The notes under the pieces are model-generated. The model was not told the DNA's origin. It saw nothing but the letters and a program-made list of their open reading frames with translations, and searched no databases. This document shows, in pieces, positions 3,990 to 19,691 of a stretch of 37,379 bases of DNA. The DNA is taken from NCBI GenBank assembly GCA_029856435.1, contig JAHQXB010000014.1:1-37379 (forward strand), read 5' to 3'. This DNA is from Candidatus Jordarchaeia archaeon (GTDB lineage Archaea; Asgardarchaeota; Jordiarchaeia; Jordiarchaeales; Jordiarchaeaceae). A program made the translations under genes and the position numbers. Position 1 is the stretch's first letter. Every line of letters begins with the position of its first letter.

Positions 3990-5210
3990 TTACATTGATT
4001 TTGCTGTGAGGTCTATGGCTCTTTGGATCTCTTTTTCTAGGAATTCTGGTAGGCCAAAGACTCTTATGTCCATGAAGCCTCTCACTATTAGGGCGGATGC
4101 CTCCTTTTCTGAGAAGCCTCTAGACATGAGGTATAGTATTTGTTCCTCGGCGATTTTTCCCACTGCGGCTTCGTGGGAGAGTTCCGCTCCACTTTTGCTG
4201 CCGATTAGTTCGGGGATGGCGTGTATTGTGGCGTTGTCTGAGAGTAGGAGTCCGTTGCATTCGAGGTGTGCTCTACTCTTTGAATTATTACCTACCAGCA
4301 TTCCCCTAGAGTAAACGTGGGCTTTATCTGTGGCGATTACTCTGGAGCTTACTTCGGCTCGGGTTTCGTCTCCGTCCAGAATAACTTTTGATCCCAGGTC
4401 GATTTGGGAGGAGCCACTGGCATAGATAACGGAGTTGAAAATTGCTGTGGACTTGTTCCCCTTGCAGTAGGCTGTTGGGTAGCTTTGAATGCTTCTTACT
4501 GGTTTGAGGAGTACATAGTTGTTTATGTAGGTTGCCCCGTCTTCCAGCAAGATTCCAGTTCGGGGGCGGACGTCCACATCCTGCTTCCAGTTGTGAACCA
4601 TGGTGAAGGTCAGCTTGGACCCCCTCTTTAGGTAAAATTCGGAGATTCCCACGTGGAGACCTCTACGCAGGTTTGGATGGGTAACGCAGCCCGTTATCAA
4701 TTGGGCTTCTGAGTCTGGCTCCAGCACCACAATGTTGTGAACATTTTGGTCAATGTTTTCACCCGCCAAAAAGAGGCAGGATTGCAGGGGGAGAGTGATT
4801 TTTACTCCTTCAAAGACATGGATGAAGTATCCGTGGTCCCATTCTAATTCTGCTAGGGCGGTGTATTTGTCTGTGTCTACTGGGACGAGGTTCCACCAGT
4901 AATCTTTGAGCCAGTCATATTTTTCGAGTGCCTGTTTGGTGCTCATTATTTCCGCTTTGTCTTTGAATGTGGTGTCTACGGTGCAGGAAACAACTGAGTG
5001 GTCTATTTGGAAGAATGTTCCTGCTCTTTCTTTGGTTTTGGGTGTGACTCCGCAACTCATGGCTCCCTCTAGGATTGGTTCTGGGAGTTCTGATATATTG
5101 GTTTCATCCCAATTGGTGGAGTTTCTTGAATACTCTTCTAGATTGAGGTCTACTCCATAGGGTGCGGGTTTATTTATTGCTTCTAGGGCTCTTTTCCTAT
5201 ACTCCGACAT
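3990..5210 (-). CDS. sufB: Fe-S assembly scaffold SufB/SufD family
   Basis: 406 aa; SufB/D-type beta-helix core (LGSKVILDGDETRAEVSSRVIATDKAHVYSRGMLVG); overlaps sufC. Confidence 0.85.
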   Translation of the reverse strand: MSEYRKRALEAINKPAPYGVDLNLEEYSRNSTNWDETNISELPEPILEGAMSCGVTPKTKERAGTFFQIDHSVVSCTVDTTFKDKAEIMSTKQALEKYDWLKDYWWNLVPVDTDKYTALAELEWDHGYFIHVFEGVKITLPLQSCLFLAGENIDQNVHNIVVLEPDSEAQLITGCVTHPNLRRGLHVGISEFYLKRGSKLTFTMVHNWKQDVDVRPRTGILLEDGATYINNYVLLKPVRSIQSYPTAYCKGNKSTAIFNSVIYASGSSQIDLGSKVILDGDETRAEVSSRVIATDKAHVYSRGMLVGNNSKSRAHLECNGLLLSDNATIHAIPELIGSKSGAELSHEAAVGKIAEEQILYLMSRGFSEKEASALIVRGFMDIRVFGLPEFLEKEIQRAIDLTAKSM

Positions 5211-5947
5211 CTTTCACACCACCAGTAGCCTTCTCTTAGAATGTGGTCAAGTGTTTCTAGGGGTGCCCCCGAGCAGGCTATGCAGCCCTCAATTATTACG
5301 TGGGCCTTGTTTGTTCTCACATAGCGTAGAATGTATCCTTGATGGGTTATGAGGATTCCTGACCTTTCCTCTAGGAGTTCATTTATGAGTTTCCCGATTA
5401 GCTCCAAGTTTTCAACGTCAACACCTGAGTCTGGCTCGTCAAGCATGATGAATTCCGGTCTCTGGGCCAGTATTTGGAGGACTTCGGAACGTTTGACTTC
5501 GCCTCCGGAGAATCCGTAGTTTAGATCCCTGTCTAGGAATGATGCTGGAAAATTGACCTTCTTAGCTAGGCTCTTTTCTCTTCCAGCTAGATTGTGGTTT
5601 TTTTCGCTTATTTTGCTTACAATGTCTCCTAACTTTACGCCTCTTATGGCTGGGGGATGCTGGAATGTGACGCCCATTCCCATTTTTATTCGTTCGTCGG
5701 TGGGCAGATTTGTTATGTCCTTGCCTTTGAAATAGATTTTTCCAGATATTATCCTATATTTTGGGAAGCCCAATAATGTAAAGATGAGGGAAGTTTTTCC
5801 GCTCCCATTGGGACCGAATATAACATGAACTTCTTTTTCTGGAATTTCAAGGTTAAAATCGTGGAGGACTTTTTTTCCGTCCACAACTACATTGAGGTCA
5901 TGGATTTCTAATATGTTCAACTTCCTCGCCTCCGAAAACAGCCTCAT
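5183..5947 (-). CDS. sufC: Fe-S assembly ATPase SufC
   Basis: 254 aa ABC ATPase: GPNGSGKTSL Walker A, FSGGEVKRSEVLQIL signature, MLDEPDSGVD Walker B. Confidence 0.92.
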   Translation of the reverse strand: MRLFSEARKLNILEIHDLNVVVDGKKVLHDFNLEIPEKEVHVIFGPNGSGKTSLIFTLLGFPKYRIISGKIYFKGKDITNLPTDERIKMGMGVTFQHPPAIRGVKLGDIVSKISEKNHNLAGREKSLAKKVNFPASFLDRDLNYGFSGGEVKRSEVLQILAQRPEFIMLDEPDSGVDVENLELIGKLINELLEERSGILITHQGYILRYVRTNKAHVIIEGCIACSGAPLETLDHILREGYWWCERCRSIGKEP

Positions 5948-6037
5948 TTAGTTCAGGAACATGGGTACAAGCAACTCCTTTAATTCCACTTATGCGTTAT
6001 TGTAGCTGTATTAATATATATTGCTCCCTACCCAGCC

Positions 6038-6146
6038 GGTGATGTAGAATCGTTCGATTTCGCCTCAAAAAGGGGGATGTTTATAGGGATTCTTTCACGA
6101 TTTGGAGCCTTATTAGGGAGATGGAATCGAACAAATCTGCATCACC
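6038..6146 (+). mobile_element. MITE-like hairpin element, copy 2
   Basis: 109 bp; TIRs GGTGATG...CATCACC; interrupted at its right border by the 6147-6333 element. Confidence 0.85.
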
Positions 6147-6333
6147 CCATATGTTTAGGCGGCACTCCTGTTTATAGGGATCTGTTTTGTGGCTGCCTGA
6201 GAGAAACCATCACCCCCATCTTTTTTAAACACCTTTGTGTAGAAAAATGGAGGTAGGAAGGGATGCAGAAGCAGGCTAAGGCAAGCTCACACCACAAAAA
6301 TTCAGATCCCCGGAGTGTTGCTTAAACATATGG
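6147..6333. mobile_element. 187-bp long-inverted-repeat element nested at the right end of MITE copy 2
   Basis: CCATATGTTTAGGCGGCACTCC... versus ...GGAGTGTTGCTTAAACATATGG inverted arms; flanked by direct repeat CATCACC (6140-6146 and 6334-6340). Confidence 0.75.
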
Positions 6334-6540
6334 CATCACCTACGCAGCCTGCCTAAATTTTTTAAATATTTTTGAGTTGTTCGTTTCACATTTTAGAGTA
6401 GTTTTGGGAAAGAGTCTAAAAATACGTTTTTCCCACCTTTGCCGAATTTTTGGTCGAAAAAGTTTGGTGAGTGTTTATCAGCATGTTTTGTGAAGATTTT
6501 CCAAAGTGGTGCTTTCTTCTTGGTTGTATGTGTATAATTT

Positions 6541-7743
6541 TTAGAACTCGTTTTGGGTCAGAATGTTTAGGAAATAGTCTAGGCCGTTGCCCATTTTTTG
6601 GAGCTCATTTCTTTTGTACGGGGGTTCATCCAACAGGTTTAGCACATCTTTTTCCAAGTTTTCTGCGATTTTGCCATAGCCATATTTCTGGACCATTAGA
6701 GCGTTTTTCCTCTTTTCCATGTGTTCCTTGGCGGAGAATAGTAGTAGGGGCACTCCATACATTATGGCTTCAGAAATGGTTCCAAATCCGCCCCGCGTAA
6801 TAACAAGGCTTGAAGCGTTAATGTAGTTTTGAATGTCTGGGAGGAAACCGTTGAATTTCAAGTTTTCCTGCTCCAATTCTCTGCAAATTCCCGATGGTGC
6901 AACCACATGGAAGTGGATGTCTGGGTGTTCCAGTGCAATCTTTTTGTAAATGTGAAAATCATAATTTTTCCTTAAACAGCTTTTTTGGTAGGGTCTTCCC
7001 ATCACTAGAACCAATGGTTCATTTTTGCCCAATCCTAATTCCTCTCTCACCTTTGATTTGGTTTTGGTCACGTCTCTAACAATTGGGGGATAGACTTTTT
7101 CGCAGTCCACAACTTCTGGCCTAATATCCATTGCGAAATTCTCAGAAAGGCCCAAAAATGAACGCACACGCTCCCCCCAAACTATGGGCCTCTCAACCAG
7201 ATACGAGTAAAAATTCATCCTGAACTCTCTCCACCCGTACTTAAAGGGTAGGTAGTGAGTAATATTAATAGTCCTCATTCCCGGAATGCATGTGAGATGG
7301 GGGTTATAATCGTTAATTAGGACACGGTACTTCAAGCTCATAATTAGGATTCTCAAAAAGTCTATGGGGAAATATAGGCTACCAAAAATTAACCTCAAAA
7401 CCGTAGGGAAAACATTGAGGTCACCATTATTGCTATAAACATATTTTATTCCATGAAGCTTATTATTACACTTTAAATCGGGCTGGGAGAGAAATTTTAT
7501 TCTTTCCTCATCACTGAATACAAGGAAATCTATATTACTCATTTTTAGCCTTGAAGCTATTGCGCAAATCCTCTGGGCATGGCCGTATCCCTCTGTTGTG
7601 GGGCAAAGAACTACTTTGAAACTTTGATTTTCACAAATCGGTTTTTCCAACAATTGTTTATCCAACTCAGCGGTTACCAATCTCTTATCTCCCATCAAAA
7701 CTTTTGAGCTGAACTCGTATTCCTCTTCTCGCCAAATTATCAT
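6541..7743 (-). CDS. Glycosyltransferase, MurG/GT28-like
   Basis: 400 aa; PTTEGYGHAQRICAIASRL N-terminal loop and ITRGGFGTISEAIMYGVPLLLF C-terminal donor-site motif. Confidence 0.8.
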   Translation of the reverse strand: MIIWREEEYEFSSKVLMGDKRLVTAELDKQLLEKPICENQSFKVVLCPTTEGYGHAQRICAIASRLKMSNIDFLVFSDEERIKFLSQPDLKCNNKLHGIKYVYSNNGDLNVFPTVLRLIFGSLYFPIDFLRILIMSLKYRVLINDYNPHLTCIPGMRTINITHYLPFKYGWREFRMNFYSYLVERPIVWGERVRSFLGLSENFAMDIRPEVVDCEKVYPPIVRDVTKTKSKVREELGLGKNEPLVLVMGRPYQKSCLRKNYDFHIYKKIALEHPDIHFHVVAPSGICRELEQENLKFNGFLPDIQNYINASSLVITRGGFGTISEAIMYGVPLLLFSAKEHMEKRKNALMVQKYGYGKIAENLEKDVLNLLDEPPYKRNELQKMGNGLDYFLNILTQNEF

Positions 7744-7978: not shown

Positions 7979-8350
7979 GTGCGCATGAAGCTTGAGATAC
8001 CCAAAAAGGCTTCAATACGTTCGGCAACGAACGAATGCCAAGCTCAACGTCTGGCATAAGGGCTTGACTGGAGTACCAGTCAAAGTAACCAAGCCCTGAA
8101 GCACAAGGAAGAGGGAGATAAGCCTGAGAGGCGTTAGTCTATGCACCGTTAAAGCCTTGAAAGTAGAGGTACAACCCCGCAAGCATCCATGAAACACTGT
8201 CTTGGCGACAAGCGGGAAATGGTGAACGAAACCTGGAAGCCACCATTTTCAAATGGTGAAGGAGGTCACTTTACTACCCATGCAGAGAAGGCCGCATGTT
8301 TAAACAGGACTCTCCTTTGTGGGGACTCTGACTGAGTTTTGAGGGATGAC
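7979..8350 (+). ncRNA. Large structured RNA-like region, possibly 5' half of a degenerate group II intron
   Basis: Starts GTGCG; many nested hairpins including GNRA loops (cgttcgGCAAcgaacg, cttgGCGAcaag, gcctGAGAggc) and gggcttg-actgg-agta-ccagt-...-caagccc. Confidence 0.45.
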
Positions 8351-8608
8351 TTCCACCATTTTTAACAACATTACGTTAAAAAAATGAAATAAGGATGCAA
8401 ATAGAAGAACTGCGAAGAAAAGAAAGCGAAGTAACATTCAACGAAAATGACAGGAAGCAAAAAGAAAAACTGCAAAAGGAACTAATGAAACGTAGAGAAA
8501 CTAGACAAATACCAGAAGGAATGAAAAACCCTTCAAAGAAACTGAACCCATCCCCCCTTAATTCTACAACTTTAGCCCTGAAAACACGTTTCCATTACTC
8601 TATCTTTG

Positions 8609-19584: not shown

Positions 19585-19691
19585 GGTGATGTGGAATTGT
19601 TCGGTTTCGCCTCAAAAAGGGATGTTAGTAGGGCTTCGTTCACGATTTGGAGCCTTATTAGGGAGATGGAGCCGAATAAATCTGCATCACC
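19585..19691 (+). mobile_element. MITE-like hairpin element, copy 3, with 9-bp target duplication
   Basis: 107 bp, GGTGATG...CATCACC; flanked by CTCCATGCG at 19576-19584 and 19692-19700. Confidence 0.9.

Follow-up and report, generated by a model that had tools for sequence, protein, structure and literature searches.

Nested insertions of two small transposable element families between sufC and a glycosyltransferase gene in an Asgard archaeal genome

Introduction

How two short inverted-repeat elements came to lie end to end between two genes of an Asgard archaeon, whether they arrived together or separately, in which order, and what moved them, are the questions raised by positions 6029–6349 of the window, i.e., the whole 37,379-nt stretch of DNA analysed here (contig C84 of a 3.54-Mb, 181-contig genome, G000). 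The pair is preceded by a gene for a sufC-like ABC ATPase (5183–5947, minus strand) and followed by a glycosyltransferase gene (6541–7743, minus strand). A preliminary description, made from the sequence of the window, had read the site as a nested transposition, in which a 187-bp element entered exactly at the end of a 109-bp MITE copy, and had taken this as a relative dating of two mobile families. In the present study the site was compared across its own genome and three relatives of the same genus (G001, G002 and G003).

Results

Direct reading of positions 6029–6349 agreed with the preliminary description. The older insertion, MITE copy 2 (6038–6146, plus strand, 109 bp), starts with GGTGATGTAG and finishes with CTGCATCACC, giving the ends GGTGATG and CATCACC, and is 94–97% identical to other MITE copies. 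The later insertion is a non-autonomous foldback element of 187 bp (6147–6333, plus strand) without an ORF of at least 80 aa. Its long, imperfect inverted arms are 22 nt in length and 86% complementary, the left being CCATATGTTTAGGCGGCACTCC (6147–6168, plus strand) and the right CCATATGTTTAAGCAACACTCC (6312–6333, minus strand). CATCACC occurs on both sides of it, as had been described, at 6140–6146 and 6334–6340 (both plus strand). The left of these is the final 7 bp of the MITE itself, so that the insertion point falls within this 7-bp terminus, a refinement of the preliminary description; the right arose as the target duplication when the 187-bp element entered, and is the MITE's outer end in its present, displaced position. 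The target duplication that MITE copy 2 had seemed to lack was found outside both elements, as TACCCAGCC (6029–6037) and TACGCAGCC (6341–6349), which are equal at 8 of 9 positions, and the single mismatch must be a later mutation.

The empty site implied by a nested history exists in G003, where contig C167 carries the same two neighbour genes (SufC 96% identical). DNA of G003 aligns to the window up to 6037 and resumes from 6342, a single ACGCAGCC being common to both alignments, and the flanks are syntenic on both sides with an identity of 87–90%. This locus is a complete empty site, both elements being absent there in the G003 lineage. Since G003 carries both families elsewhere, absence at this site does not mean absence of the elements from that genome.

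The nested duplications together with the empty site place the MITE first and the 187-bp element second, and the same order follows from the 7-bp duplication being the MITE's own final 7 bp. We are therefore highly confident that two unrelated, non-autonomous elements transposed successively into the space between the sufC and glycosyltransferase genes, a reading carried by the copies of both families, their duplications, the empty site and a second, independent case described below. In the first step, the 109-bp MITE inserted into an ancestral (T)ACGCAGCC, duplicating 9 bp; in the second, the 187-bp foldback MITE took the terminal CATCACC of the first element as its target, so that this outermost heptamer now occurs twice. 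As the two families have no ends in common and make duplications of unlike length, we infer that they were moved by two different transposases.

Around 19 complete copies of the 187-bp element, plus fragments, are present in its own genome. With these copies and the G003 locus, neither of the two outcomes that the preliminary description had named as contrary to nesting (an element lacking further copies; an orthologous locus showing the stretch as one unit) was observed. They are 179–199 bp long, 79–91% identical to the window copy, and have 22-bp ends beginning CCATATGTTTA…. When the 19 copies were aligned with their flanks, the flanking repeat was an exact 7 bp in 11 and had at most one mismatch in 14, with no repeats at 6 bp and no exact ones at 8 bp, so the 7–8 bp first proposed can be narrowed to seven. 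The element is thus itself a MITE: short, multicopy, without a transposase, and with inverted ends, a constant duplication and ends in common with an autonomous element. G003 has its own subfamily, of equal length and likewise with 7-bp duplications, and members throughout the genus have retained this length (mostly 184–189 bp) while their sequence has diverged to ~70%. Two arrangements in G003 also place elements of this CCATATG family next to one another. At one (C224; L056 1501–1880), two divergent members lie side by side with one common 7-bp target, in the order CGAGAAA-element-CGAGAAA-element-CGAGCAA, and at the other (L061) an element lies within the end of a relative, again an element beside an element end.

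Self-folding of the 187-bp element is far above that of shuffled sequences (z of -6.4 to -7.0; about -6.5 when folded as DNA). The cross-species consensus fold consists essentially of the terminal repeats and its covariation term is small (-1.79 kcal/mol), for which reason we ascribe the foldback to the element's inverted ends, a structured RNA was rejected, and no RNA function is claimed. An Rfam search of the window gave no structured RNA match.

The 109-bp family has 77 recognisable left ends in its own genome, versus 8, 2 and 1 in the three relatives. Exact target duplications flank 23 of 30 examined copies (10 bp in 15, 9 bp in 8), and with its many copies, inverted ends and constant duplication it is likewise a MITE. 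The ends of IS1 also start with GGTGATG, and a 9-bp duplication is usual for that element. Searches with the IS1 transposase profile PF03400 gave no match in G000, G002 or G003; in G001 they detected two IS1-type transposases without GGTGATG ends nearby. The 109-bp MITE thus resembles IS1 in the start of its ends, but a partner IS1 transposase with matching ends was sought in its genome without success, and derivation from IS1 is not supported.

A second MITE copy nested with a 187-bp element was found at C89:28566–28864, the insertion having hit the identical terminal 7 bp. There the 187-bp element is in the opposite orientation to that in the window and the outer flanks differ (CCTGTTACT), so the C89 pair is not a copy of the window pair. 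Elsewhere in the genome, a 187-bp element lies inside a diverged MITE relative with a 7-bp duplication (C72), another does so with a less clean junction (C79), and a third adjoins a truncated MITE without a duplication (C61). Insertion at the exact end in 2 of the 19 complete copies has a chance of ~3e-7 if the whole genome is open to insertion, and of ~1.4e-5 if, by assumption, only 15% of it is. Because these values are so low, the transposase of the 187-bp family likely favours MITE DNA to some degree, and the MITE end most of all, a judgement based on the two exact-end cases and the three insertions in or beside diverged MITEs. The more specific proposal, that this transposase prefers the terminal inverted repeat of an unrelated MITE family as its landing site, is put forward tentatively. 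If true, the ends of one parasite would be the safe harbour of another, with a 7-bp cut falling exactly on the MITE boundary in both orientations.

There is also a possible, if somewhat doubtful, explanation in which chance or survival, without any target preference, accounts for the position at the exact end, the nesting itself being unaffected. Insertions in MITEs may survive better than others, being harmless to the host, and the exact-end cases number only two. In addition, a logo of the 7-bp targets from 15 sites displays no strong common sequence, with weak A-rich/T-rich symmetry ~8–10 bp outside the duplication. Against it stand the improbability of two such landings in 19, even with the smaller available fraction of the genome, and the two further elements, at C72 and C79, that lie inside diverged MITEs.

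The repeated pair bears equally on whether the 296-bp stretch could be a single composite element that transposed in one piece. Both parts occur together with the same junction at C84 and C89, and the whole stretch is missing from G003, as such a unit would be. However, the 187-bp part is oppositely oriented at C89, and most copies of either family are solo with duplications of their own (9–10 bp for the MITE, 7 bp for the 187-bp element); the difference in orientation and the solo copies refute the composite reading, which we regard as very improbable. Misjoining of reads from two repeat families is just as improbable. The draft is indeed fragmented (181 contigs), and several 187-bp copies sit at contig ends. 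Nevertheless, both outer flanks are syntenic with a single G003 contig, the inner and outer duplications match across both elements, and each element is short. That the 187-bp element came first and the MITE inserted beside it afterwards recalls C26 and C85, where MITEs adjoin remnants of the 187-bp family, but has next to no probability here, given that the right-hand CATCACC is MITE sequence that the ancestral site preserved in G003 lacks, ACGCAGCC occurring there once, that the 9-bp duplication of the MITE surrounds both elements, and that no relative was seen with the 187 bp and its 7-bp duplication but without the MITE.

The succession of MITE first and 187-bp element second applies to this locus and not to the families overall, which limits the relative dating given in the preliminary description. 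Copies of the 187-bp family differ from their own consensus by 4–25 substitutions, those of the MITE by 2–6 differences, and by this measure of divergence the 187-bp family is older on average, although its copy in the window is the younger insertion. The reverse arrangement at C26 and C85, where the 187-family element beside the MITE is truncated, shows that the two families were active during overlapping periods. Relative dating is therefore secure for the window locus only, and the families as a whole are left unranked.

A transposase with CCATATGTTTA-type ends, as anticipated in the preliminary description, was found in decayed form in the same genome and with an open frame in G001. A search of G000 for the 22-bp end gave one pair 2.1 kb apart (C115:5722–7835), between which lies a decayed, frameshifted and interrupted transposase gene; G000 yielded no intact copy of such a transposase. 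The pieces have below-cut-off profile likeness to MULE, IS256, ISH6 and IS66. In G001, contig C2 carries a related transposase with an open frame of 278 aa, followed by a second frame that runs to the contig end; the transposase part of SQRJ_82 (278 aa; GenBank, Candidatus Freyarchaeota) is 100% identical in G001, a match that suggests this Asgard phylum for the genus. Three other contigs of G001 (C18, C49 and C50) share with C2 the left end and the start of the transposase and stop thereafter, as expected of an element that multiplied recently. At these four G001 loci (L141, L147, L149 and L151) the CCATATGTTCAAT ends begin 49 bp upstream of the transposase start. The insertion sequence, with at least four loci, was probably active recently and multicopy, with contigs mostly breaking inside it.

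The partner transposase scored 23.0 bits against MULE PF10551 (E = 1.1e-4), below the Pfam gathering score of 27.6. Its scores against the NCBIfam profile of IS256 (25.8 bits, cut-off 150) and the ISH6 profile (21.1 bits, cut-off 240) are far below the curated cut-offs, and membership of the IS256 family is not assigned on this ground. Because the 22-bp ends are common to both, the 187-bp element likely owes its mobility to an insertion sequence that encodes a MULE/IS256-like DDE transposase, which would act in trans on it with a staggered 7-bp cut. The nested site thereby indicates where the movement probably came from.

In G000, the transposase gene at C115 is broken by what seems to be a third small inverted-repeat element (L113 2345–2530) with the ends CTTGTTAAAAAA/TTTTTTAACAAG, and a repeat of GTACCCGCG lies alongside.

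Discussion

Mobile elements landing in mobile elements are an ordinary phenomenon, and MITEs are known from archaea, including SM1–SM4, SM3A and SMN1 of Sulfolobus and the MITEs of Haloquadratum (PMC3718332, PMC3119063, PMC10969869). Both families described here share with them a short, non-coding sequence, terminal inverted repeats, target duplications, many copies and presumed dependence for movement on an insertion sequence whose ends are alike. They differ in their ends, in the host group, and in their duplications of 7 bp (187-bp element) and 9–10 bp (109-bp element).

The closest parallel is Haloquadratum walsbyi, where SMR-A and MITE elements insert into PATE and IS605-type elements, 192 foreign-element insertions have been tabulated, and functional transposase copies have been lost while MITEs still move (PMC3119063). 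There, as here, one small archaeal family is found repeatedly at a set position of another. Unlike the present case, in which a 7-bp duplication is made within a terminal inverted repeat, SMR-A makes no target duplication and targets near-terminal palindromes of elements without inverted ends (PMC3119063). In Coxiella, IS1111 inserts into QMITE2 (described in PMC10969869), so that there, too, a mobile element has a MITE as its target. The incoming element is non-autonomous in the present case, whereas IS1111 is a complete insertion sequence and recognises a palindrome. As to the transposase beside the CCATATGTT ends, its profile matches to IS256, ISH6 and IS1249 (MULE-like DDE) are weak but consistent, and it is assigned to none of these families, the curated cut-offs being far higher than its scores.

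MITEs of archaea are thus already known, as are small element families that target one another, and the present case adds an instance in a new host group. For an Asgard archaeon, the site documents a complete and dated nesting of small transposons, from empty site through first to second insertion. This pair of families, with its own ends and duplications, is apparently undescribed. Among the papers searched, none named Freyarchaeota in connection with mobile genetic elements. Should landing at the exact end prove a true preference, it would add a new case of mobile elements serving as mutual harmless landing sites, comparable to Haloquadratum. A practical caution is that elements of these families break assemblies of such genomes.

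Several smaller observations were made on the repeats around these elements. A repeat with the ends GGCGATAGATTYGC / GCRAATCTATCGCC immediately abuts the end of a 187-family remnant (L043 1500–1952, G000 C132) and likewise that of a MITE relative (L009 1–130, G000 C72); as it adjoins both kinds of element, junctions of element beside element recur. Within the window, 8292–8400 holds a CCATATG-family element of which the left part persists in decayed form (CCGCATGTTTAAACAGGACTCT); in its end it resembles the G003 subfamily more closely than the 187-bp family of its own genome. Two further copies of the 109-bp MITE are present in the window, one at 471–578 with no target duplication visible, and one at 19585–19691 with the 9-bp duplication CTCCATGCG.
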